This document shows positions 2,186 through 14,185 of a DNA stretch of 14,185 nucleotides, piece by piece. Location of the stretch: positions 1 through 14,185 of the forward strand of contig CAMOTK010000028.1 in assembly GCA_946625715.1 (NCBI GenBank). Direction: 5' to 3'. The position numbers were made by a program, and so were the translations under genes. Each line of letters begins with the position of its first letter. Positions within the stretch are counted from its first letter, which is position 1. The notes under the pieces are model-generated. The model made no database searches and had not been told where the DNA came from. It saw nothing but the letters and a program-made list of their open reading frames with translations. Source of the DNA: an uncultured Prevotella sp. (lineage in GTDB: Bacteria > Bacteroidota > Bacteroidia > Bacteroidales > Bacteroidaceae).

Positions 2186-4009
2186 TTAGTAACCAGGATT
2201 CTGGTTTGACTTATCCATAGCGGTGTTCATCTCAATCTCGTTGGCCGGGATAGGACGATAGAGTTTATAGGCGGTACCGTTCACATCCATCATGGCCTTG
2301 GCGCTGCTGATATAGGGGTTGAACTCAACATTGTAGCGCACGAGCTGCTTGGTACGACGGAGATCCATCCAGCGCTGACCTTCAGCGTAGAGCTCACGAG
2401 CGCGCTCGTCGAGAATCACGTCGATGTCGCGAATCTGGAAGGAGCCAGTGGTAGCATAGCTGTTTACGTAGTCGCCAAAGGCATTGAGCGAGGCCAGTCC
2501 GGCACGGTTGCGCACGGCGTTGAGCTTAGCCAGAGCCTCAGTGGTCTTTCCGGCCATCATATAGGCCTCGGCAGCAACGAGATACATGTCGCTGACGTGC
2601 AGGAGCACGATGTCGCGGTAAGAGTTCTTACTTGTGACCTGCTCGGAGGCGGGATCGTCGAACTTCTTCACGCACACGCCATTGCTGGTCTGGTTGTTGT
2701 AGTCAGAGAGAGCCTGGGTGGACTTAGCTTTCACGCTGCCGTCGGCATTGAAGGTGTACTTCGTAATGCGGGGAAGTGTGAGAATGGCAGCAGTGACCTC
2801 AGTGATGTCGGTGCCCTGCACATACTGCGACTGATGGGCAGCGAGTTCAGCCTCGACCTCTGACTCGGTGACATACCAGGGGAAGTAGCGGTGGGCGATG
2901 TGGAAATCAGCCAGTTTGGCAGCATCCACATTGTAATAGGCATAGTAACCCTCGGTACCCCAGTTGGCCATGTTGCCGCTCTTGCCACCATTGTACATCG
3001 TGGTCATGAACGTTGCTTCATAACGCAGGTCGCCTTTCTCGAAAAGGTACATGCTCTTTTCAGACTGGGCATTGTCACTACCCACGTTCTTCTGACCGCT
3101 GGTGGTGCAGTCGCCATAGTAGCCGCCAAAGTTGTTCTGCATAGAGTGACCACCCTCGCTGCTGTTGCCGGGGTAGCCATTACGCTCGTACTGTACGGAG
3201 AAGATTTCCTCAGCATTGCCCTCGTTGGCGGGAGCCCACTTGTCGGCGAAGGTCATGGTCAGGCCGATGCCCTTGATGGCCTTTTCTGCCCAGGCAGCAG
3301 CCTCGGTGAAGTTGGCAGTAGAGCCAACGGTATAGGTACCCTGCTCTATGTTGTCAACGGTGGTGTCGAGATCCCAGCCGGCAGCCAGATAGACTTTGGC
3401 CAGAAGAGCAGCAACAGCCTGCTTGTTGGCACGACCCTTATGGTTCTGGTCGTCAAGGCTCGAGTTGTTGTAGAGGGCAGTCAGGTCTTCAATCAGACCG
3501 GCATAGACGTCCTTCAGCTCGGTACGGGGATAGTCGCGCTTGGCATCATTAATATAGGTAGTGATGTAAGGCACACCGCCAAACTGCTGGGTGAGCACGA
3601 AGTAACAGTAGTCGCGCAGGAAACGGGCCTCATAGCCTAAAGCCGACTCTGCACCGGCATAGCTGATGACGCCATTGGCGTAGTTGATGGTCTGGTACAG
3701 GTTGGAGTACAGGCTCTTCACGCCATCATCCTCCACCGTAAGCGTGTACTCATTGTACACACCGCCGGAATGGCCACGGGTGTTGATATAGAGGTCGGTA
3801 CCCTGAGAGAAGAGCTCGGGATTGTAAGCAACCGACTTCAGGCTGTTGTAAGTGGCTGTAAGGAACTGCGTGGCGTCAGATCCAAAGCGGTCGTCGGCCG
3901 TCTGTCCGCCGGCACTCTTGTTCTCCGGTGTCAGGAAGTCGCTGCAGCTGGTCAGAGACATACCCGTCAGCATGGCGGCCGTCACGAAAAGATATATTTT
4001 CTTTTTCAT
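2186..4009 (-). CDS. RagB/SusD family outer-membrane glycan-binding lipoprotein
   Basis: 607 residues. The signal peptide ends in a lipobox, LTSC (Cys22), followed by SDFLTPENKS, the typical start of SusD proteins. Family hallmarks include the YANGVISYAGAESALGYEAR-like helix early on, a TPR-rich scaffold (AKVYLAAGWDLD; AEAYMMAGKTTEALAKLNAVR-type helices), the late segment DERARELYAEGQRWMDLRR, and the C-terminal YRPIPANEIEMN...NPGY, which is near universal in the family. SusD proteins sit as a lid on the SusC barrel and capture oligosaccharides for import. The gene starts 22 bp after the susC-like stop, so the two are clearly co-transcribed. Length is at the long end of the family range. The ligand cannot be read from sequence; pectic oligosaccharides are inferred from the divergent pectate lyase. 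Confidence 0.97.
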   Translation of the reverse strand: MKKKIYLFVTAAMLTGMSLTSCSDFLTPENKSAGGQTADDRFGSDATQFLTATYNSLKSVAYNPELFSQGTDLYINTRGHSGGVYNEYTLTVEDDGVKSLYSNLYQTINYANGVISYAGAESALGYEARFLRDYCYFVLTQQFGGVPYITTYINDAKRDYPRTELKDVYAGLIEDLTALYNNSSLDDQNHKGRANKQAVAALLAKVYLAAGWDLDTTVDNIEQGTYTVGSTANFTEAAAWAEKAIKGIGLTMTFADKWAPANEGNAEEIFSVQYERNGYPGNSSEGGHSMQNNFGGYYGDCTTSGQKNVGSDNAQSEKSMYLFEKGDLRYEATFMTTMYNGGKSGNMANWGTEGYYAYYNVDAAKLADFHIAHRYFPWYVTESEVEAELAAHQSQYVQGTDITEVTAAILTLPRITKYTFNADGSVKAKSTQALSDYNNQTSNGVCVKKFDDPASEQVTSKNSYRDIVLLHVSDMYLVAAEAYMMAGKTTEALAKLNAVRNRAGLASLNAFGDYVNSYATTGSFQIRDIDVILDERARELYAEGQRWMDLRRTKQLVRYNVEFNPYISSAKAMMDVNGTAYKLYRPIPANEIEMNTAMDKSNQNPGY

Positions 4010-4031
4010 TGTTTCTGGATATTAAACGTTA

Positions 4032-7000
4032 TTAGAATTTAATGCTTGCACCAATCTGATAGGTAATCGTGCTCGGACCGTCGTTCTTCAGAGCAGCGTC
4101 GGCCCACTCAGGATCGAAGCCCTTGTACTTGGTGATAACGAACGGGTTGGTCACCGTAGCATAGAGGCGGAGGTGCTTGCAGCCAATCTTGCTCAGCAGG
4201 GTCTTGTCGAAGGTATAGCCCAGTGTGATATTCTTTACCTTCAGGAACGAAGCGTTGGTGACGCACTTCGACTGATCCCAGTAACCACCCTGTATACCGA
4301 CACCACCATTGCTGCCGCCATTGTTGGGGAAGGGCATGTCGCCATAGTGCGTAGAGGTCTGATAGACGGGGTTGATGTACGTACCATCGGGATTGACACC
4401 GTCGACGTCGACCAGCGTACCGGCAGGAATGTACCAGTCGCCCTGGAGACGCATACGGCCGCGGTCGCCCAGGTTCCAATACTCGCCGAGGAAGTTAGAA
4501 TAGACCTTGTAGCCAACCTTGGCATAGAGCGAGAACGAGAAATCCCAGTTCTTCCAAGAGAGGTTTGAGGTGAAACTACCGGTGAACTTCGGATCCATGC
4601 TGCGGATAACGCGGTCGTCGGGATCGATCTTACCGTCGCCGTTCTGGTCCTTCACATAGGGCTGACCCTCGGTGAGGCCATAGACCTTGTAGAAGTAGTC
4701 GTACTCCCTCATCTTGTCGCCGGGGTTCAGGCCGGCATTCTTAGCCGCATCGTTGTTGGGAACGGTCATCATGCGGTCGGTAACGATACCACCGGTCTCA
4801 TAAGTATAGGTATTGTTCAGAGCGTAGTTCAAGAACAGGTTGCCGGTCACGCCGTCACCAACGAGGCGGTCGACGATACCGTCGATGTTGCGCACCTTGT
4901 TGACGTTGTGGGCAAAGGTGAACGAAGTTTCCCAGTTCCAGTCCTTGGTCTTGATGTTAACCGTGTTCAAGGCGATTTCAATACCACGGTTGCGCACCGA
5001 ACCGATGTTGGTCTTCATTGAGCCGCCACCAGACTCTAAGGGCAGATCGACGCCACGGAGCAGGTTGTCGGAAGTCTTCTGATAGACATCGATGCTACCG
5101 TTGATGCGGTTGTCGATGAAGCCGAAGTCAAGACCGGCGTTGAACTCAGTAGAGGTCTCCCACATCAGCACCTTATTAACAATAGAGGAAGGTGTAAAGC
5201 CCTGAGCATAGTCGGCACCGAAGGGATAGAAGATAGGATCGGAAAGGGTCTGCTGGGTATCATAGGCACCGGCACCCTTGTTGTTACCAGTCTTACCGAA
5301 AGCCAGACGGAGCTTCAGGTTGCTGAGCCAGCTGACGTTCTTCATGAAGTCTTCCTCAGTGATACGCCAAGCAAGAGCTGCAGAGGGGAATGCACCCCAG
5401 CGATTGTCCTTGTCGAACTTCGAGCAACCATCCCAACGCATGGTCAGGGTGAGCAAGTAACGGTTCTTCCAGTTATAGTTGGCACGCAGGGCATACGACG
5501 TCATGCTGGTCTCTGAGTAAGAAGTCTTCGACTTGTCGGCATTGTACGTGCCGCTACCCATGTTCCACCAGTCGGTGAGGTCCATCACGCTGGTAGCAAA
5601 CCACTGGCTGCGCTCCGAATTGCCCGACTCCATCGAGAACAGGCCCATCAGACTGAGGTTGTGGTCCTGTGCAATGGTGGTGCTGTAGTTGATGATGTTA
5701 TCCCATGTCCAAGAGAAGTTGCGATAACGATCGGTATTAGCTTCGTTGGGCGTTTCGGAGGTATAGGTACCATCGTCGTAAGCCTCGCCGGTGAGCGGGT
5801 TCTTATAGCCACCGAAGAAACCTTCGCGATAGCTCTGATAGTTGGGAGAGAACGTGGTCTTGAAGTCCAGACCCTTGATGATGTCGAACTTCAGGTAGAC
5901 GTTACCCAGCAGGCGCCAAGACTCGCGCTGTTTTTTGGTGCTCTTCATAATGTCGAGCGTGCTGCGCTGATCAGAGAACTGATAAGAGTCGGTGCCGAGT
6001 GCGGCATAGTTACCAGGCTTGTGGTTCACGTTGCCGTCTTTGTCGTAGGGCACCATGTAGGGGTTCATACGATATGCATACTTGATGGCATCGTCGTTGG
6101 CATATTCCTGATCGGTGCGGGCAATATTCAGGCTGAAGCCAGCGCTGATGACCTTGTTGACCTTAGCGTCGACGCTACCCTTGAAGTTGAACTGCTTCTT
6201 GCCATCGCCCTTGTACGTACCGATTTCACGGTTGAAACCAGCACCGAAGTGGTAGTTCACACTCTCACTACCGCCGTTGACAGAAATGAAGTGGTTCTGC
6301 TGGCTGCCGTTCTGAGTGACCATGCCGGGCCAGTCGTAAGTCTTGCCTTCGGCCAGCATCTGCTTCATCAGGTATTCGCCATCGCCGGTGTGCTCACGGA
6401 GCAGGCACTGCTCAAGCACGGTGCCGCCGATCTGATAGACGGGATGAGAAGAGAGTGCAGAGGCTGCTGTCGCACCATTACCGCCATAAGTCAGGAACTT
6501 CATGAAGCGGTAGTCATAGAACTGACGGCCATTCTGGAACTCAGGCATGCGGGCTGTCTTCGACCAGCCATAATAGCCATCGTAGCTGATGGTGGGCTTC
6601 TGGTCGCGCTTGATGCTCAGGCCACCCTTTGTGGTCACCATAATCACACCGGCTGTAGCACGCGAACCGTAGATAGCGGTTGACGAAGCGTCTTTCAGCA
6701 CGTCGATGCGCTCGATGTCCTGAGGATTGAGGAAGTTGATGTCGTCGCACATCACACCGTCAACCACATAAAGAGGAGTGGTGCTCGAGTTGATAGACGA
6801 CTTACCACGGATTTCGATATTGAAACCACCGCCTGCACGACCAGACGACTGTGTGATGTTCACACCAGGGTTGCTACCCTGCAGGTTTCCTAATACTGAA
6901 GGAGCACCCTTGGCGTTCAGCTGCTCGGTGTTCACTGAAGAAACCGAACCCGTCACGTCTGTCTTCTTCATCGTACCGTAACCCACGACTACGATGTCCT

Positions 7001-7310
7001 GAAGCGTGGTGGCGTCTTCCTTCATCACCACTTTTACGTTAGACTTGCCGGCAACTTTCACTTCCTGTGTCACCATACCGATGTACGAAATCACAAGAAC
7101 CTTACGCTCGCCGAGCTTAATGGTGAAGTTACCGTCGAAGTCCGTCACGGTGGCGTTCTTCGTACCCTTCTCCATCACTGTCGCGCCGATGACGGCTTCA
7201 CCCTGCTCATCGACCACGTTACCCGATACTGACTGAGCTGAAATGCTGCCTACGAGGAAGCAGAACAACAGCACCAAGCCAAATCGAAGTGTTTTTAAAT
7301 GACCTTGCAT
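4032..7310 (-). CDS. SusC/RagA family TonB-linked outer-membrane transporter
   Basis: 1092 residues from the ATG at 7310. A longer open frame reaches 7445, but that start lies in the promoter, and a clear signal peptide (residues 1-26, ending GSISAQ) begins at 7310. Order of parts: carboxypeptidase-D-like regulatory domain (about 27-100, with GNVVDEQGEAVIGATV), TonB box DIVVVGYG (105-112), plug domain (about 113-230, with YVVDGV and IERIDVLKDASSTAIYGSRA), then a 22-strand-type beta-barrel ending in an aromatic residue, GASIKF. No N-terminal STN domain is present, so it is not of the anti-sigma-signalling subtype. It imports oligosaccharides captured by the adjacent SusD-like lipoprotein using TonB energy. 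It is the first gene of the minus-strand operon, with a consensus promoter at 7414-7445 and a roughly 100-nt structured leader. Confidence 0.97.
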   Translation of the reverse strand: MQGHLKTLRFGLVLLFCFLVGSISAQSVSGNVVDEQGEAVIGATVMEKGTKNATVTDFDGNFTIKLGERKVLVISYIGMVTQEVKVAGKSNVKVVMKEDATTLQDIVVVGYGTMKKTDVTGSVSSVNTEQLNAKGAPSVLGNLQGSNPGVNITQSSGRAGGGFNIEIRGKSSINSSTTPLYVVDGVMCDDINFLNPQDIERIDVLKDASSTAIYGSRATAGVIMVTTKGGLSIKRDQKPTISYDGYYGWSKTARMPEFQNGRQFYDYRFMKFLTYGGNGATAASALSSHPVYQIGGTVLEQCLLREHTGDGEYLMKQMLAEGKTYDWPGMVTQNGSQQNHFISVNGGSESVNYHFGAGFNREIGTYKGDGKKQFNFKGSVDAKVNKVISAGFSLNIARTDQEYANDDAIKYAYRMNPYMVPYDKDGNVNHKPGNYAALGTDSYQFSDQRSTLDIMKSTKKQRESWRLLGNVYLKFDIIKGLDFKTTFSPNYQSYREGFFGGYKNPLTGEAYDDGTYTSETPNEANTDRYRNFSWTWDNIINYSTTIAQDHNLSLMGLFSMESGNSERSQWFATSVMDLTDWWNMGSGTYNADKSKTSYSETSMTSYALRANYNWKNRYLLTLTMRWDGCSKFDKDNRWGAFPSAALAWRITEEDFMKNVSWLSNLKLRLAFGKTGNNKGAGAYDTQQTLSDPIFYPFGADYAQGFTPSSIVNKVLMWETSTEFNAGLDFGFIDNRINGSIDVYQKTSDNLLRGVDLPLESGGGSMKTNIGSVRNRGIEIALNTVNIKTKDWNWETSFTFAHNVNKVRNIDGIVDRLVGDGVTGNLFLNYALNNTYTYETGGIVTDRMMTVPNNDAAKNAGLNPGDKMREYDYFYKVYGLTEGQPYVKDQNGDGKIDPDDRVIRSMDPKFTGSFTSNLSWKNWDFSFSLYAKVGYKVYSNFLGEYWNLGDRGRMRLQGDWYIPAGTLVDVDGVNPDGTYINPVYQTSTHYGDMPFPNNGGSNGGVGIQGGYWDQSKCVTNASFLKVKNITLGYTFDKTLLSKIGCKHLRLYATVTNPFVITKYKGFDPEWADAALKNDGPSTITYQIGASIKF

Positions 7311-7358
7311 ACTTGTTTGTTTTAGTTGTTTTATTGAGTTATTATATTGTATTCGCGG

Positions 7359-7389
7359 GCGTTTCGGCCTCTCGAAGAGGCTTCCACGC
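7359..7389 (-). promoter_or_regulatory. Hairpin in the susC-like mRNA leader
   Basis: In the transcribed leader, GCCTCT (minus strand 7381-7376) pairs perfectly with AGAGGC (7372-7367) around a 3-base loop, and an outer GCGT/ACGC pair (7389-7386 with 7362-7359) extends the stem across a small internal loop. There is no U-tract, so it is not an ordinary terminator. A role in mRNA stability or translation is possible but not shown. Confidence 0.5.
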
Positions 7390-7413
7390 TTAGTTAGTAA
7401 CCAGTTTGACGCG

Positions 7414-7445
7414 GCAAAATTACTAAAAAAAAGTATCTCTACCAA
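7414..7445 (-). promoter_or_regulatory. Bacteroidetes-type promoter of the susC-like operon
   Basis: Read on the minus strand: TTG (7445-7443), 20 bp, then TAATTTTGC (7422-7414), matching TTG/TAnnTTTGC. Transcription would begin near 7410, giving a leader of about 100 nt before the ATG at 7310. This is the main reason for rejecting the upstream start at 7445. Confidence 0.75.
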
Positions 7446-7492
7446 AAGAAATGCAAAAAAAATCTTATAGTATTTAGTGGGGACAGGGCATT

Positions 7493-7524
7493 ATTGCACC
7501 TTTTTTCATTAAAATTACACCTTT
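7493..7524 (+). promoter_or_regulatory. Candidate operator: 11-bp direct repeat with 21-bp offset
   Basis: ATTGCACCTTT (7493-7503) and ATTACACCTTT (7514-7524) differ at one base and start 21 bp apart, two helical turns. The second copy overlaps the place where the lyase promoter should have its -33 TTG but does not. Direct repeats two turns apart at the edge of a weak promoter are the usual binding architecture for AraC-type DNA-binding domains, including those of hybrid two-component regulators that control Bacteroidetes polysaccharide loci. The regulator is not in this window. Confidence 0.55.
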
Positions 7525-7541
7525 ATATAAAATATTATTAG

Positions 7542-7550
7542 TACTTTTGC
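7542..7550 (+). promoter_or_regulatory. -7 element of the pectate lyase promoter
   Basis: TACTTTTGC matches TAnnTTTGC. At the expected distance upstream (about 7519-7523) there is only ACCTTT, with no TTG, so the promoter probably needs an activator. Transcription would start near 7554, about 23 bases before the ATG at 7577. Confidence 0.6.
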
Positions 7551-7576
7551 AGCGGAAAAAAACAAACGACAACGAT

Positions 7577-9211
7577 ATGAAACAACTGAAAAAAACGCTC
7601 TTAGCATGCTGCCTCATGGCAGCTACACAGCCCATGCTTGCTCAGACGCCTGCTTTCCCGGGCGCTGAAGGCTTCGGCCGACTGACCACCGGCGGACGCG
7701 GTGGCAAGGTGTATCACGTGACATCACTGGAAGACGACGGCAAGACCTCTACAAAAGGTACGCTGCGCTGGGCCAACGCACAGGCGGGACCGCGCACCAT
7801 CGTGTTCGACGTGTCGGGCACCATCTACCTGAAGTCGGCACTGAAGATTAACGCCAACACCACGATTGCCGGCCAGACGGCTCCCGGCGACGGCATCTGC
7901 ATTGCCGGCTATCAGGTGACGCTGAACAGGAACAACATCATCCGCTACATCCGCTTCCGTCCGGGCGACGAGAATGAGGGCGAGCACGACGGCCTGGGCG
8001 CCATGGACTCGGAAAACATTATCGTCGACCACTGCTCGGTGTCGTGGAGCGTCGACGAGTGTCTGTCGGTCTACGGTTCGAAGAACATCACCGTGCAGTG
8101 GTGCATCTCCTCGCAGAGCCTGAACAACTCCAACCATGCCAAAGGCAGCCACGGCTACGGCGGCAACTGGGGCGGCAGCGGTGCCTCGTACCACCACAAC
8201 CTGATTGCCCACCACGTATCGCGCACACCGCGCCTTGGCCCGCGTCCCGGCACACAGACTGACGAGCGCATGGACATGCGCAACAACGTCATCTATAACT
8301 GGGCAGGCGAAGGCTGCTATGGCGGCGAAGGCATGAACGTGAACATCGTGAACAACTACTACAAGCCAGGCCCCGGCACACCGAGCGGCGCCAAGGGCAT
8401 GCGCATTGCCTCTATCGGCATCCGCACCAGCGACTATACTAAACACAACACGGACAAGCCCAACGATTGGGACAAGATGTGGCACGTCTGGGGCGACTTC
8501 TACGTAGAAGGCAACGTGAACGAAAGCTATCCACAGGTGGCCCAGGACAACTGGACCTATGGCATGTATAACCAGATAAGCAACAGCAAAGTGGACAACA
8601 CCTACACGCAGGAAACAAAGGACACAATGCGCATCTACGACCCCATCGCCTTTGAGCAGGTGACCACCCACTCGGCCGAGAAGGCATACGAGCAGGTGCT
8701 GAAGTACGTGGGTGCCTCGCTCCACCGCGACGCTCTCGACGAGATTATCGTCAACGACGCCAAGAACGGCACGGCCACCTTCACCGCTTCGGGCAACTCG
8801 AAGGGTATCATCAACCACCCGAGCGACGTCTCGGGCGAAGGCTGGGAGAAGTGGCCCACGCTGAAGAGTGAGCCGGCACCTGCCGATACCGACGGCGACG
8901 GCATGCCCGACGCATGGGAAACGGCCAAAGGCCTGGACCCCAGCAATGCGGCCGACGGCAACACGAAGAACGACGAGGGCTACACGAACCTGGAACTCTA
9001 CCTGAACAGTCTCGTGGCCGACATCACCGCCAAGCAGAACGAGGGCGGCACCGTGCTGCAGGGACAGGAGAAGGATGCCGCCGGCATCAGCACCCTGCAC
9101 AAAGACAGCAAGCGCCCCGAGGGCATCTACACCATGAGCGGCCTGCGCCTCGACGGCATCTACCAGCCGGGGCTGTATATTGTGAACGGACAGAAAGTTA
9201 TTATCAAATAA
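7577..9211 (+). CDS. Secreted pectate lyase, PL1 family type, with calcium-repeat segment and sorting-like tail
   Basis: 544 residues from the ATG at 7577. A TTG at 7547 would extend the frame but lies inside the -7 promoter element. A signal peptide ends near LAQ (23). The catalytic parallel beta-helix (about 26-350) opens with PAFPGAEGFGRLTTGGRGG and carries HDGLGAMDSENIIVDHCSVS (137-156) and the HH--SRTPRLGPRPG segment (212-225) with the arginine that acts as base in PL1 enzymes. The fold cleaves polygalacturonate by calcium-dependent beta-elimination. Residues 437-477 contain DTDGDGMPDAWE, a thrombospondin-3/dockerin-like calcium loop often attached to such lyases. The C-terminus (518-544, GIYTMSG...GLYIVNGQKV-IK) is a T9SS-like tail, so secretion or surface attachment is likely. 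It is first of a two-gene arm with the GH3 gene, 17 bp downstream. Confidence 0.93.
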   Translation: MKQLKKTLLACCLMAATQPMLAQTPAFPGAEGFGRLTTGGRGGKVYHVTSLEDDGKTSTKGTLRWANAQAGPRTIVFDVSGTIYLKSALKINANTTIAGQTAPGDGICIAGYQVTLNRNNIIRYIRFRPGDENEGEHDGLGAMDSENIIVDHCSVSWSVDECLSVYGSKNITVQWCISSQSLNNSNHAKGSHGYGGNWGGSGASYHHNLIAHHVSRTPRLGPRPGTQTDERMDMRNNVIYNWAGEGCYGGEGMNVNIVNNYYKPGPGTPSGAKGMRIASIGIRTSDYTKHNTDKPNDWDKMWHVWGDFYVEGNVNESYPQVAQDNWTYGMYNQISNSKVDNTYTQETKDTMRIYDPIAFEQVTTHSAEKAYEQVLKYVGASLHRDALDEIIVNDAKNGTATFTASGNSKGIINHPSDVSGEGWEKWPTLKSEPAPADTDGDGMPDAWETAKGLDPSNAADGNTKNDEGYTNLELYLNSLVADITAKQNEGGTVLQGQEKDAAGISTLHKDSKRPEGIYTMSGLRLDGIYQPGLYIVNGQKVIIK

Positions 9212-9228
9212 GACAAACACATAACAAA

Positions 9229-11469
9229 ATGCGCAAGCTAACGATTCTTTTTGCACTGCTGACCCTATGGTGTGGCCAGCCAGCAGCACAGACGCTGCCC
9301 TTCCAGAATCCGAACCTCAGCACCGACGAGCGCGTGGAAGACCTGCTCAAGCGACTGACGTTGGAAGAGAAAACGAAACTGATGATGAACAGTTCGCCAG
9401 CCATACCCCGACTGGGCATTCCGCAGTGGGACTGGTGGAGCGAAGCACTCCACGGCGTAGGCCGCAACGGCGTGGCCACGGTGTTCCCGTCGTGCATCGG
9501 CATGGCCTGCTCGTTCGACAACGACCTCATCGGCCGCATCTACGACGCCGTGAGCGACGAGGCGCGCGCCAAGCACAACCAGCTGCGCGAGCAGGGCAAG
9601 CCCACCGCGAAGTATCAGGGCCTGTCGTTTTGGACGCCGAACATCAACATCTTCCGCGACCCGCGGTGGGGACGCGGTCAGGAGACCTACGGCGAAGACC
9701 CCTTCATGAACGCACAGATGGGTCTTTGCGTGGTGCGCGGCCTGCAAGGCACCCAAACTTCAAACTCGCAAACTTCAAAATACTATAAGCTTCACGCTTG
9801 CGCCAAGCACTTCGCCGTGCATAGCGGTCCGGAGAAGACACGCCACCACTTCGACATAGAAGACTTGCCGACGCGCGACCTGTGGGAAACCTACCTGCCG
9901 GCCTTCAAGACGCTCGTGCAGGAAGGCAACGTGCAGCAGGTGATGTGCGCCTACCAGCGCTTCGACGGCGAGCCCTGCTGTGGCAGCAACCAGCTGTTGC
10001 AGCGCATCCTGCGCGACGAGTGGGGCTTCAAAGGCCTGGTGGTGAGCGACTGCGGTGCCGTGAGCGACTTCTGGATGGAAGGCCGCCACGGAGTATCGAA
10101 GGATGCCGCCGCAGCCTCAGCCCGTGCCGTACTGAGCGGCACCGACGTTGAGTGTGGCAAGAACTACACGAACCTGCCCGAGGCCGTGCGCCGGGGCGAC
10201 ATCTCGGAAGAAGAAATCAACGTCAGCGTGCGCCGCCTGCTGAAGGGCCGTTTCGAACTGGGCAACTTCGACCCCGACGAGCTGGTGCCCTGGACGAAGA
10301 TTCCGGCCTCGGTCATTGCCTCGAAAGAACATAAGGCACTGGCACGCCAGATGGGCCGCGAGCAGATGGTGCTGCTGAAGAACAACGGCATCCTGCCACT
10401 CGACGCCAACAACAAGCGCATCATGGTGATGGGCCCCAACGCCGCCGACAGCACCATGCTGTGGGGTATCTACTTCGGACAGCCCTCGCACACCGTGACG
10501 CCGCTCGAAGGCATTGCTGCCCGTCTGGGTGGCGACGTGCCCTTCATTGAGGCGTGCGACATCACCAGCATGACGGTGGAGAAGCGGCGCATTGGCCGCA
10601 GCACCGAGAGCGCCGACGGCAGCACCACCCTGCAGATGGAGTCGATGGGACAGCACACGTTTACGATGGACGAGATTGTCCAGAGTGCAGCCCAGAGCGA
10701 CATCGTCATCTTCGTGGGCGGCATCTCGCCCAACCTGGAACGCGAAGAGGCCAAGAAAGTGCACCAGCCGGGCTTCGACTCCGGCGACCGCACGTCTATT
10801 GAACTGCCGCAGGTGCAGCGCGACATTCTCCGCAGACTGCACGAGGCCGGCAAGAAGGTGGTGCTGGTCAACTGCAGCGGCTCGTGCGTTGCACTCGAAC
10901 CGGAGATGAAGACCTGCGACGCCATTCTTCAGGCCTGGTATGCCGGCGAACAGGGCGGACACGCACTGGCCGACGTGCTCTTCGGCGACTATAACCCTGG
11001 CGGCAAACTGGCCGTCACGTTCTACAAGAACGACGCGCAGCTGCCTGCCTTCGACGACTACCGCATGCAGGGCCGCACCTACCGCTACTTCAAGGGCGAG
11101 CCCCTCTTCCCCTTCGGCTACGGACTGAGTTACACCTCTTATAAATATGGTAAGCCGCAGTACAAGAACGGCAAGGTGACGGTGAGCGTGACCAACACCG
11201 GCCGACGCGACGGCACGGAGATTGTGCAGGTCTACGTGCGCAACATGGCCGACACCGAAGGCCCCATCAAGACGCTGCGCGGCTACGGCCGTGTAGACCT
11301 GAAGGCCGGAGAGACCAAGACCGTGAGCATCGACATGCCGCGCGAGCGGTTTGAGGGCTGGGACGTGAAGACCAACACCATGCGCGTGGTGCCCGGTCGC
11401 TACGAACTGATGGTGGGTGCTTCGAGCGCCGACAAAGACCTGAAAAAGCTGGTTGTGAACATCAAATAG
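9229..11469 (+). CDS. Secreted GH3 family glycoside hydrolase (beta-xylosidase/beta-glucosidase type)
   Basis: 746 residues from the ATG at 9229; the frame is open further upstream but only inside the lyase gene, and a signal peptide (residues 1-20, QPAA-Q) begins here. Domains: GH3 N-terminal TIM barrel (about 30-350) with WSEALHGVGRNG, NIFRDPRWGRGQETYGEDP and the nucleophile motif GLVVSDCGAVSDF (Asp274); GH3 C-terminal alpha/beta domain (about 375-600), where NLEREEAKK near 502-510 holds the probable acid/base glutamate; and a fibronectin-III-like domain (about 635-740) with VTVSVTNTGRRDGTEIVQVY. Such enzymes remove terminal beta-linked xylose, glucose or arabinose residues from oligosaccharides; specificity cannot be read. 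It lacks the C-terminal tail of the lyase, so it is probably periplasmic. Residues 174-185 (TQTSNSQTSKYY) are an unusual insertion encoded by an AACTTCA repeat tract just before the conserved ACAKHFAVHSGPE. Confidence 0.95.
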   Translation: MRKLTILFALLTLWCGQPAAQTLPFQNPNLSTDERVEDLLKRLTLEEKTKLMMNSSPAIPRLGIPQWDWWSEALHGVGRNGVATVFPSCIGMACSFDNDLIGRIYDAVSDEARAKHNQLREQGKPTAKYQGLSFWTPNINIFRDPRWGRGQETYGEDPFMNAQMGLCVVRGLQGTQTSNSQTSKYYKLHACAKHFAVHSGPEKTRHHFDIEDLPTRDLWETYLPAFKTLVQEGNVQQVMCAYQRFDGEPCCGSNQLLQRILRDEWGFKGLVVSDCGAVSDFWMEGRHGVSKDAAAASARAVLSGTDVECGKNYTNLPEAVRRGDISEEEINVSVRRLLKGRFELGNFDPDELVPWTKIPASVIASKEHKALARQMGREQMVLLKNNGILPLDANNKRIMVMGPNAADSTMLWGIYFGQPSHTVTPLEGIAARLGGDVPFIEACDITSMTVEKRRIGRSTESADGSTTLQMESMGQHTFTMDEIVQSAAQSDIVIFVGGISPNLEREEAKKVHQPGFDSGDRTSIELPQVQRDILRRLHEAGKKVVLVNCSGSCVALEPEMKTCDAILQAWYAGEQGGHALADVLFGDYNPGGKLAVTFYKNDAQLPAFDDYRMQGRTYRYFKGEPLFPFGYGLSYTSYKYGKPQYKNGKVTVSVTNTGRRDGTEIVQVYVRNMADTEGPIKTLRGYGRVDLKAGETKTVSIDMPRERFEGWDVKTNTMRVVPGRYELMVGASSADKDLKKLVVNIK
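9755..9780 (+). repeat. AAACTTC repeat tract inside the GH3 gene
   Basis: AAACTTCAAACTCGCAAACTTCAAAA type tract: two exact ACTTCAA heptamers (9757-9763 and 9772-9778) separated by an imperfect 8-base unit. It is A/T-rich inside a GC-rich gene and resembles the heptamer array at 13869-13896. Confidence 0.65.
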
Positions 11470-11500
11470 GCTAAACAAAGTGAAAAGGTACAAGAATATT

Positions 11501-11531
11501 TTGGGTTTTCACGAATTTAAAGTATCTTTGC
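11501..11531 (+). promoter_or_regulatory. Bacteroidetes-type promoter of the kinase-RapZ fusion operon
   Basis: TTG (11501-11503), 19 bp, then TATCTTTGC (11523-11531), a full consensus match. The ATG is at 11539, only seven bases after the element, so the predicted mRNA starts a few bases before the start codon or at it. The same promoter would also drive the murU-like gene. Confidence 0.8.
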
Positions 11532-11538
11532 ACCGTCA

Positions 11539-13071
11539 ATGAAACAACTCTTACAACTTTATAAGCAGTGGAGCGGTCATGAACCTGCCAGCACCGAAAG
11601 GTTGCCGGGCGCAGGTTCAAACCGTTCATACTACCGACTGACAGACGCTGAAGGCCAAACCGTCATCGGCTGCATCGGAACCAGCCGCGACGAGAACCAC
11701 GCCTTCATCTACTTGGCACGGCACTTCTGCAAGCGCCAACTGCCGGTGCCGAAGATTTTGGCGGCCAGCGACGATGAGCTGCGCTACCTGCAAACCGACC
11801 TCGGCCGCACCTCGCTCTTCGACGCCATCAAGGGCGGACGAGAAGCCGGCGGCCGCTACACGCTGAAGGAACAGGAGCTGCTGAAGCGCGTCATACGCGA
11901 ACTGCCGAACATACAGATACGAGGGGCACGCGGGCTGGACTTCTCGCAATGCTACCCGCAGGCAACCTTCGATGTAGACAGCGTGCTCTTCGACCTGAAC
12001 TACTTCAAGTACTGTTTCCTCAAAGCCACAGAGATAGACTTTCACGAACTGAAACTGGAAGCCGACTTCCGACTGCTGGCCAAAGACCTGACGCAGGCCG
12101 ACGATGTTCAGGGATTCCTCTACCGCGATTTTCAGGCACGGAACGTGATGTTGATGGACAGCGTTCCAGCTTTCATCGACTTCCAAGGCGGTCGCCGCGG
12201 GCCGTTCTACTACGATCTGGCATCTTTCCTTTGGCAGGCCAGTGCCAAATATCCTCATAAGTTGCGCCGCGAACTGGTGTACGAATACTATACGGCGCTG
12301 AAGCAATACACCGAAGTACCCACCCCACACCGTTTTGTCGAGCGCCTGTCGCTCTTCGTGCTCTTCCGCACACTGCAAGTGCTGGGCGCCTACGGCTTCC
12401 GCGGCTACTTCGAGCGCAAGCAACACTTCATCGACAGCATTCCGCCCGCCATCCAGAACCTGCGCGAACTGATAAATGAGGGCAACTACCCCTACCCTTA
12501 CCTGATGTCGATTCTGAAGAAGCTGACCGAGCTGCCACAGTTCCAGCAGATAGCAGCCACGGCCAGTCGTGCCGACGGCTACAAGACCACCGACAACAAT
12601 CCCTACAAGCCACACCCGCAAGACGGTCCGGCCACGTTCTCGAAGTACGACGGCAAGGGCCCGCTGGTGGTGCGCGTCTTCAGTTTCTCGTTTGCCAAAG
12701 GCATTCCAGAAGACGAGAGCGGCAACGGCGGCGGCTATGTGTTCGACTGCCGCAGCACCCACAACCCCGGCCGCTACGAACCCTACAAGCAGCTCACGGG
12801 ACTGGACGAGCCCGTCATCCGCTTTCTGGAAGACGACGGCGAGATTCTCACCTTCCTCGACTCGGTCTACAAGCTGGCCGACGCCCACGTGCGCCGCTAC
12901 ATCCAGCGTGGCTTCACCAGCCTGATGTTCTGCTTCGGCTGCACAGGCGGACAGCACCGCTCGGTCTACTCGGCTCAGCATCTGGCTGAGCACATCCACC
13001 AGAAATTCGGTATCGAGGTGCGCATCTGCCACCGCGAACAGCATATCACCCAAACACTCGAAGCGCTATGA
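11539..13071 (+). CDS. amgK: Fusion of AmgK-like amino-sugar kinase (APH fold) and RapZ C-terminal domain
   Basis: 510 residues. N-terminal half (about 1-335) is an aminoglycoside-phosphotransferase-fold kinase: LPGAGSNRSYYRL (22-34) is the nucleotide loop, FLYRDFQARNVM (193-204) is the catalytic loop with Asp197 and Asn202 (Tyr replaces the more usual His), and FIDFQGGRRGP (212-222) supplies the metal-binding Asp214. The pattern fits AmgK, the anomeric MurNAc/GlcNAc kinase of peptidoglycan recycling. After a polar linker (about 340-373), residues 374-501 match the RapZ C-terminal domain: VRVFSFSFAKGIP, YVFDCRSTHNPGRYEPYKQL, TGLDEPV, and FGCTGGQHRSVYSAQHLAEH, against GCTGGKHRSVY in E. coli. 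That domain in E. coli binds glucosamine-6-phosphate and RNA; the RapZ N-terminal P-loop domain is absent here. The stop overlaps the next start by ATGA, implying translational coupling. Kinase substrate and a sensing role for the RapZ part are inferences. Confidence 0.9.
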   Translation: MKQLLQLYKQWSGHEPASTERLPGAGSNRSYYRLTDAEGQTVIGCIGTSRDENHAFIYLARHFCKRQLPVPKILAASDDELRYLQTDLGRTSLFDAIKGGREAGGRYTLKEQELLKRVIRELPNIQIRGARGLDFSQCYPQATFDVDSVLFDLNYFKYCFLKATEIDFHELKLEADFRLLAKDLTQADDVQGFLYRDFQARNVMLMDSVPAFIDFQGGRRGPFYYDLASFLWQASAKYPHKLRRELVYEYYTALKQYTEVPTPHRFVERLSLFVLFRTLQVLGAYGFRGYFERKQHFIDSIPPAIQNLRELINEGNYPYPYLMSILKKLTELPQFQQIAATASRADGYKTTDNNPYKPHPQDGPATFSKYDGKGPLVVRVFSFSFAKGIPEDESGNGGGYVFDCRSTHNPGRYEPYKQLTGLDEPVIRFLEDDGEILTFLDSVYKLADAHVRRYIQRGFTSLMFCFGCTGGQHRSVYSAQHLAEHIHQKFGIEVRICHREQHITQTLEAL

Positions 13072-13868
13072 AACAGGCCATGATACTGGCAGCAGGACTG
13101 GGCACACGCCTGAAACCGCTCACCGACACGATGCCAAAGGCACTGGTGCCCGTGGGTGGCAAACCGCTGCTCGACCTGAATATCCGCAAACTGCTGGCGC
13201 AGGGCTACGACCGCTTTGTGGTCAACGTGCACCACTTTGCCCAGCAAATCATCGACCATGTGGCCCAACAAGACTATGCGCCGCTGGTGCACTTCAGCGA
13301 CGAGAGCGAACAACTGCTCGAAACGGGCGGCGGACTGAAGAAAGCACAACTGCTCTTCGACGACCAGCAGCCCATCCTCATCCACAACGTCGACATTCTC
13401 GACAACATCGACTACGACTGGTTTGCCCGCCAACACCAGGATGAAGAAGACGCCGTGCTGCTCGTCAGCCGCCGCAAGACCAAACGCTATCTGCTCTTCG
13501 ACAACAGCATGCGCCTCATGGGATGGACCAACATTGAGACTGGCGAGGTGCGCTCACCTTATCCCTGGTTGCGCGAGTCGGAGATTGCCATCGACGAAAA
13601 CTGGAACGTGGTGGCGCAGCCCAATTCTCACTTGTCAACGCTCCATTATCAACTGAATGCCTATGCGTTCAGCGGCATCCACAGTTTCTCGCCCCGCCTC
13701 TTTCCGCTCATGGACCGTTTCCCCGACAGGTTCAGCATCATCGACTTCTACCTCTCCGTCTGCCACCGCAGCCGAATCTACGGCTGTCAGAAAGACGGCC
13801 TGAGCGTGCTCGACGTCGGCAAGCTCGACTCCTTAGAGCAGGCTGAAGCCTACGTCAAAGCCCCATAA
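13068..13868 (+). CDS. murU: MurU-like sugar-1-phosphate nucleotidyltransferase
   Basis: 266 residues with a single nucleotidyltransferase Rossmann domain. [20 protein letters not shown] (6-25) is the nucleotide-binding signature, with Lys24 in the PKA motif; [11 protein letters not shown] (83-93) is the substrate loop of MurU/glucose-1-phosphate transferases; HNVDIL (106-111) carries the metal-binding Asp109. The length fits stand-alone MurU (about 225-270), and there is no acetyltransferase or left-handed-helix domain as in GlmU. Starting 4 bp inside the kinase gene, it would use the MurNAc-1-phosphate made by that kinase and UTP to give UDP-MurNAc, bypassing de novo synthesis and fosfomycin-sensitive MurA. 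Mannose-1-P or GlcNAc-1-P transfer is the alternative reading by sequence alone; the kinase partnership favours MurU. Confidence 0.88.
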
Positions 13869-13905: not shown

Positions 13906-14185
13906 ATGCAACAGAAGATTATCATTCTCGATTTCGGGTCGCAGACCACGCAGCTCATCGGCCGCCGCGTGCGCGAGCTGGACACCTTCTGCGAGATTCT
14001 GCCCTACAACAAGTTCCCCGTGGGCGACGAGAGCGTCATCGGCGTCATACTCAGTGGCTCGCCTTACTCAGTACACGACCCCGAGGCCTTCAAGGTCGAC
14101 CTCAGCCAGTTCATCGGACGTCTGCCCGTACTGGGCATCTGCTACGGCGCACAGTTCATCAGCCACACCCTCGGTGGCAAGGTAG
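13906..14185 (+). CDS. guaA: GMP synthase (glutamine-hydrolysing), N-terminal part, cut by window end
   Basis: The first 93 codons are present. [20 protein letters not shown] (2-21) is the start of the class I glutamine amidotransferase domain of Gua[16 protein letters not shown] (48-62) matches the SG-P-SV loop, and GICYGAQ (77-83) contains the nucleophile Cys79. The enzyme converts XMP to GMP using glutamine-derived ammonia; the ATP-pyrophosphatase and dimerisation domains lie beyond the window. The DFGSQ-TQLI-RR start distinguishes it from carbamoyl-phosphate synthase and anthranilate synthase amidotransferases. It lies 37 bp after the murU-like gene on the same strand. Confidence 0.95.

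Follow-up and report, generated by a model that had tools for sequence, protein, structure and literature searches.

The window analysed here, a stretch of 14,185 nucleotides from an uncultured Prevotella sp., encodes a protein in which a sugar kinase is joined to the C-terminal domain of RapZ (RapZ_C), and its gene runs into that of a MurU-like nucleotidyltransferase. The locus raises the question of what a RapZ domain does inside a kinase. The fused gene (11539..13071, + strand; delimited by ORF, Pfam, family alignment and predicted structure) encodes 510 amino acids: an APH-fold kinase domain (residues 1-336; 11539..12546, +) with catalytic residues D197, N202 and D214, a low-confidence linker (residues 347-373; 12577..12657, +; pLDDT under 50) and RapZ_C (residues 374-503; 12658..13047, +). 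The preliminary description of this DNA had observed the same fusion of an APH-fold kinase with a RapZ C-terminal domain, which the Pfam matches confirm, and its motif FGCTGGQHRSVY in the RapZ domain reads as stated. In the ORF calls, the stop codon overlaps the next start as ATGA (13068..13071, +), and the MurU-like ORF of 266 amino acids follows (13068..13868, +; Pfam and NCBIfam). The start of a GMP synthase (guaA-like) gene lies directly 3' of the MurU-like gene (13906-14184); a protein sharing the GMP synthase-like start was seen at 7 of 80 named loci.

Upstream of the fused gene lies a polysaccharide utilisation region (2186-11469), comprising a SusD-like lipoprotein (2186-4009, - strand), a SusC-type TonB receptor (4032-7445, -; the called TTG start at 7445 looks too far upstream), a pectate-lyase-like protein (7547-9211, +) and a GH3 glycosidase (within 8914-11469, +; the called start at 8914 also looks too far upstream). 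A match to TTTG-N19-TATCTTTG, which we take to be the Bacteroidetes-type promoter consensus, ends 8 bases 5' of the start codon (11500..11530, +); the motif matched three times in the window against 0.07 expected. With so short a distance to the ATG, the fused-gene message may be nearly leaderless (11500-11541). This promoter was rejected as a family trait: only 5 of 80 named relatives carried it within 150 bases upstream, and 17 of 1600 random stretches matched.

The kinase half matched Pfam APH over residues 20-250 with 50.4 bits (cut-off 23.2). When the predicted model was compared with known structures, residues 1-336 superposed on APH-fold kinases, and this fold occupies the place of the RapZ P-loop NTPase half that had been described as missing. 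Asp197, Asn202 and Asp214, noted earlier as intact, were invariant across a 25-member family alignment. AmgK was the best kinase model for the fused protein, despite scores far under the equivalog cut-offs (NF045759, 59.1 bits against 550; NF045698, 17.3 against 500). The likely reaction of the window kinase is phosphorylation of a hexosamine at the anomeric position.

Pfam identifies the second ORF as a nucleotidyl transferase, and its best NCBIfam model is MurU. The MurU models NF045697 and NF045761 were the two best of 42 matched (25 listed), at 123.9 bits (cut-off 370) and 108.3 bits (cut-off 250), both below the cut-off. The genomic partner that characterises an AmgK-type kinase is thus present in a MurU-like form, under the MurU cut-offs. 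The low equivalog scores (59 of 550 bits and 124 of 370), together with the lack of AnmK in 36 of 142 RapZ_C genomes, would suit another reading, in which kinase, nucleotidyltransferase and RapZ domain serve a different amino sugar (GlcNAc or an exogenous sugar) whose phosphate the RapZ domain dephosphorylates or senses. AmgK and MurU are nonetheless the best kinase and transferase models, and a link with MurQ absence among AnmK genomes, given below, points to MurNAc; we consider a different sugar improbable.

The C-terminal part matched the Pfam RapZ C-terminal domain (PF22740) over residues 377-501 with 107.5 bits (cut-off 27) and belongs to that family. Structure comparison returned the RapZ C-terminal fold, on whose presence the preliminary description had staked its reading. 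The RapZ RNase adapter equivalog NF003828 gave 87.7 bits (cut-off 244) and aligned at profile positions 157-277 only, which is short of a full-length RapZ. The family alignment and the predicted secondary structure place a C468-T-G-G-Q-H-R474-S475 loop (C-x5-R-S; 12940..12963, +) between strand 461-468 and helix 474-490; Cys468 closes the predicted strand and Arg474 opens the helix. Conservation was read from 120 sequences of RapZ_C, taken from fused proteins as well as from separate genes. Cys468, Thr469, Gly470, Gly471, His473, Arg474 and Ser475 were identical in 119 of them, the gap being the truncated L101; Asp403, Arg405, Asn409, Pro410 and Gly411 were identical in all 120, and His498 in 119. 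Of the 119 complete sequences, 111 had Q and 8 had R at position 472; K occurred there in one (G298) of 25 further sequences from the order sample. The K-to-Q change that had been remarked on is therefore real in the window but no peculiarity of it, Q or R being the usual family state; with the remainder of the loop unchanged, the distinct ligand mode deduced from it is weakened.

A C-x5-R-[ST] loop between a strand and a helix is the arrangement of the cysteine phosphatases, and by alignment and predicted structure the RapZ_C loop takes the form of a cysteine-phosphatase loop, a point absent from the preliminary description. The resemblance itself is known already. The matching E. coli RapZ residues form a pocket that binds sulfate or malonate, and a published comparison likens the loop to that of protein-tyrosine phosphatases and raises hydrolysis as a hypothesis (both PMC7199280, excerpt); phosphatase activity is cited for the full-length homologue YvcJ of B. 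subtilis (PMC7525490, excerpt). What is new here is the link of the loop to MurNAc salvage. The E. coli pocket residue H190 is replaced by an invariant Gly in the family. Among the listed fold and profile matches of RapZ_C there was no protein-tyrosine phosphatase; these were RapZ, followed by weak matches such as P-loop kinases and phosphofructokinase. The domain might instead be a scaffold or oligomerisation module only, with an unrelated HAD phosphatase such as MupP acting on MurNAc-6P, and the RapZ C-terminal domain does form dimers (PMC5737377, excerpt). A scaffold has no need of an invariant C-x5-R-S loop, nor of persisting as a separate, sometimes unlinked gene, and we regard this role as rather improbable, slightly more so than service to another sugar.

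The preliminary description had also proposed an RNA-adapter role. On such a reading, a small RNA bound by the RapZ domain would link salvage to the decay of RNA, as happens in E. coli. In its favour, the homology to RapZ is genuine, and by consensus most relatives, unlike the window protein, have K at the K170 place. In E. coli RapZ, the path of GlmZ is lined by K170, R184, K194, R196, R211, R238 and K251 (PMC9841335, excerpt). In the alignment, only R184 (R405) and R196 (K417) stay basic in the window protein, whereas K170, K194, R211, R238 and K251 correspond to A386, P415, D432, F459 and Q472; five of the seven path residues are thus non-basic. The basic RNA-binding tail is reported only in Enterobacteriaceae, together with GlmY/GlmZ, in the excerpt of PMC7073468, and "there is no evidence" of RNA binding by B. 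subtilis YvcJ in that of PMC7525490. No Rfam match was found within the window. On path residues, tail and the Rfam search of the window, we rejected the RNA adapter as the main reading; it is very improbable and should be dropped.

The survey of architecture and murU adjacency that had been proposed as a check showed that the fusion recurs throughout the phylum. In a predicted-protein search, at least 8000 candidates passed E 1e-3, and the best 120 listed all contained both Pfam domains. The few names among the matches listed were mostly phosphotransferase, besides aminoglycoside/choline kinase family phosphotransferase and predicted P-loop-containing kinase; in another listing, of 120 rows, no entry bore the name of T. 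forsythia AmgK. In a phylum sample of 296 Bacteroidota genomes, RapZ_C was present in 36, fused in 27 (frames of 478-524 residues, both domains checked in all 27) and separate in 9 (134-155 residues); a second phylum draw returned genomes already in the sample. Of 129 genomes from the order to which the window belongs, 109 carried RapZ_C: 100 in frames of 466-565 residues, 6 as a separate gene (134-161 residues), one in a frame of 750 and two in frames of 268 and 398; the 100 were called fused by open-frame length, with both domains checked in G000, G230, G395 and G396. Named carriers include Prevotella, Hoylesella, Leyella, Alloprevotella, Phocaeicola, Bacteroides, Parabacteroides, Paludibacter, Tannerella sp., Muribaculum, Carboxylicivirga and Ignavibacteria. 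Far from being an oddity, the fusion is a theme of the whole phylum.

In the 15 genomes with separate RapZ_C (9 + 6), a separate kinase gene was present in all and directly beside RapZ_C in 13. In two loci (L068 of G180 and L069 of G271) the RapZ_C gene lies far from kinase and MurU; the G180 kinase was the most divergent of 14 found (29% identity), on the longest tree branch (4.66). Triple fusions of kinase, RapZ_C and MurU-like transferase were found at L106:6001-8280 (760 aa) and L157:3398-5650 (751 aa), and contig 46 of G298 contains a single open frame of 750 residues. Adjacency was counted in 80 named loci kept from at least 584 relatives. The fused ORF was called in 77 (L135, L146 and L160 fall outside the count; a later scan matched L135 to both RapZ and AmgK models), and MurU was the adjacent downstream gene in 49 of these 77. 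The 25 loci scored as not adjacent include the triple fusions L106 and L157, and three more loci end at a contig edge. The ATGA coupling stands for the window but is no universal trait: the 4-base overlap, reckoned from the longest ORF, occurred in 12 of the 49 adjacent loci.

The MurU query covered the whole phylum sample and 26 order-sample genomes. In the phylum sample, a MurU match at E 1.2e-24 or better was present in 36 of 36 RapZ_C genomes, linked in 28, and an equally good match in only 2 of 260 genomes lacking RapZ_C (G009 and G231). The RapZ domain, without the RapZ NTPase half, therefore accompanies the kinase and MurU as a constant third partner. Best models and MurU linkage across the phylum bear out the amino-sugar salvage context and the coupling to a MurU-like gene put forward in the preliminary description.

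The MurNAc-6P that AnmK makes can go to MurQ or, as in Pseudomonas, enter the MupP-AmgK-MurU route, and MupP was discovered by seeking a gene that co-occurred with amgK and was absent with murQ (PMC5371407, excerpt). The thresholds were E 1e-3 for AnmK (the match in G216 reached no better than 1.2e-10) and E 1e-30 for MurQ; among the MurQ matches, 7 of 211 and 8 of 27 scored below the model's own cut-off. Among the 207 AnmK genomes of the phylum sample, 182 had MurQ without RapZ_C, 13 had both, 12 had RapZ_C without MurQ and none had neither. All 12 MurQ-less AnmK genomes therefore had RapZ_C (Fisher 5.6e-13, kinship ignored); they represent six families, each of which is one of the 11 (out of 50) that contain RapZ_C (p 2.9e-5 at the family level). 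In the order sample, 75 of 85 AnmK genomes were without MurQ, and 73 of these had RapZ_C; the exceptions, G370 and G391, had neither kinase nor RapZ_C, and the MurU of G391 is on a 10-kb contig. RapZ_C was present in 81 of the 85 AnmK genomes against 28 of the 44 others (p 6.5e-6, kinship ignored). The phylum sample showed no such enrichment, AnmK occurring in 25 of the 36 RapZ_C genomes and in 207 of 296 overall. The gene distribution fits a missing MurNAc-6-phosphate phosphatase step, a point the preliminary description did not contain. RapZ_C co-occurs with kinase and MurU and complements MurQ absence in AnmK genomes, as MupP does, but the trio moves as one. Because the three proteins travel together, the profile supports the trio as a MurQ alternative and not, by itself, RapZ_C as the phosphatase.

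Genomes with the kinase alone bear on this distinction. The kinase was queried in 30 genomes: 22 of the 280 that lack RapZ_C across the two samples, and 8 with separate RapZ_C. Six of the 22 had the kinase without RapZ_C, with catalytic residues intact, and all six were without AnmK and MurQ. AnmK was missing in 6 of 6 kinase-only genomes against 36 of 142 RapZ_C genomes (Fisher 4e-4, kinship ignored; G000, 65% complete, excluded). Within the 22, the contrast was weak (kinase in 6 of 17 without AnmK and 0 of 5 with it), and two of the kinase-only genomes, G313 and G417, belong to one genus. In a kinase tree of 50 rows, the kinase-only state required four changes, at least two of them on starred branches, and the kinship-aware pair test found two pairs on starred branches and four in all, too few to decide. 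In three loci from genomes without AnmK and MurQ, MurU comes immediately after the kinase, with no intervening RapZ_C: L082 of G009 (5090-6801), L175 of G417 and L177 of G313.

RapZ_C without AnmK is what an allosteric sensor would account for. The RapZ domain would then bind GlcN6P, another amino-sugar phosphate or a UDP sugar and switch the kinase with no catalysis, so that salvage is adjusted to the de novo supply of hexosamine. GlcN6P is a ligand of E. coli RapZ, whose C-terminal domain may bind it in exchange with GlmY (PMC7199280, excerpt); loop and pocket are intact in the family, and RapZ_C is retained in the 36 AnmK-less genomes, 25 of which are also without MurQ. Of the 25 AnmK-less genomes read from the order sample (17 without and 8 with MurQ), 24 keep an intact C-x5-R loop, so the AnmK product is not the sole reason for its retention. 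Bit scores gave no sign of relaxed constraint on RapZ_C without AnmK (81 against 27 genomes, p 0.15). AnmK is scarce in the window's own kinase clade: it is missing from G314, G395 and G230, the last being the one further genome sampled from the window's family that has RapZ_C, and neither AnmK nor MurQ was found in G000 (65% complete). A sensor explains this persistence better than a phosphatase does; for a phosphatase, AnmK-less genomes would have either other sources of MurNAc-6P or amino-sugar 6-phosphate, or an additional non-catalytic role for the domain. Yet the pocket has an invariant Gly where E. coli has H190, and a pure sensor of de novo supply predicts neither the separate, unlinked RapZ_C genes of G180 and G271 nor the finding that every genome seen to have lost the domain (6 of 6 of those found) is without AnmK. 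We rank the sensor second and consider it somewhat unlikely. G396 (L219, 3832-9538) is a natural case of RapZ-loop decay, which we count in favour of the phosphatase reading: in its fused protein Asn409, His473 and Arg474 are replaced, the kinase is kept and AnmK is absent. A MurQ gene and a weakly NagK-like protein lie within 5 kb of this fused gene.

The reading we rank first, at a probability of roughly 0.4, is that the fused protein is a bifunctional cell-wall salvage enzyme, in which RapZ_C would be a MurNAc-6P phosphatase feeding the kinase. The two folds, the invariant loop, the constant kinase/RapZ/MurU trio and its distribution against AnmK and MurQ were computed; from them we infer catalysis by the loop, MurNAc-6P as its substrate and the action of the kinase on MurNAc. 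The RapZ domain would bind an amino-sugar 6-phosphate, most likely MurNAc-6-phosphate, in the C-x5-R loop, and Cys468 would act as the nucleophile that removes the 6-phosphate. The fused kinase would then phosphorylate the freed MurNAc at C1, and the co-translated MurU would turn the product into UDP-MurNAc, the RapZ domain taking the role held in Pseudomonas by the HAD phosphatase MupP. Such a phosphatase would account together for the invariant Cys-Arg loop, for the existence of RapZ_C as a separate gene and in triple fusions, and for the distribution complementary to MurQ. A wider and more tentative proposal is that RapZ_C is at heart a cysteine-type amino-sugar-6-phosphate phosphatase, serving Bacteroidota as the MurNAc-6P phosphatase in separate, kinase-fused or triple-fusion form, and that the RNA and two-component functions in E. 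coli are a regulatory reuse of a recycling enzyme.

The AmgK-MurU route has been presumed for Bacteroidetes (PMC5790795, excerpt). In the open-licence literature, we found no paper naming a MurNAc-6P phosphatase for Bacteroidetes and none treating AmgK together with RapZ; only PMC7199280 was found for RapZ with tyrosine phosphatase. If the RapZ domain is that phosphatase, a gene of 109 of 129 order-sample genomes, mostly labelled 'phosphotransferase' when it bears a name at all, gains a function, and the hypothesis that E. coli RapZ hydrolyses the metabolite it senses becomes open to direct assay on a separate protein of about 137 residues.

Compared with known systems, the window protein shares its fold over residues 1-336 with N-acetylhexosamine 1-kinase (4ocj) and other APH-fold small-molecule kinases, although identity to 4ocj-type kinases is only about 10%. 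RapZ_C has the local strand-C-x5-R-[ST]-helix loop in common with cysteine-dependent protein-tyrosine phosphatases, whereas its overall fold is that of RapZ. RapZ and YvcJ of E. coli and B. subtilis carry a P-loop NTPase half, in place of which the window family has a kinase of another fold or nothing; the family further differs from them in K251 to Q or R, H190 to G and an insertion, ahead of the FDCR strand, that contains an invariant GGG, and most RNA-path basic residues of E. coli RapZ are gone from the window protein. The AnmK-MupP-AmgK-MurU pathway of Pseudomonas and Caulobacter likewise has an APH-fold sugar kinase beside a MurU-like nucleotidyltransferase, and like the window-type trio it is distributed in complement to MurQ among AnmK genomes. 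The window kinase and transferase score far under the model cut-offs for AmgK and MurU proper, and the third component is a fused or adjacent RapZ C-terminal domain, instead of or beside the HAD phosphatase MupP.
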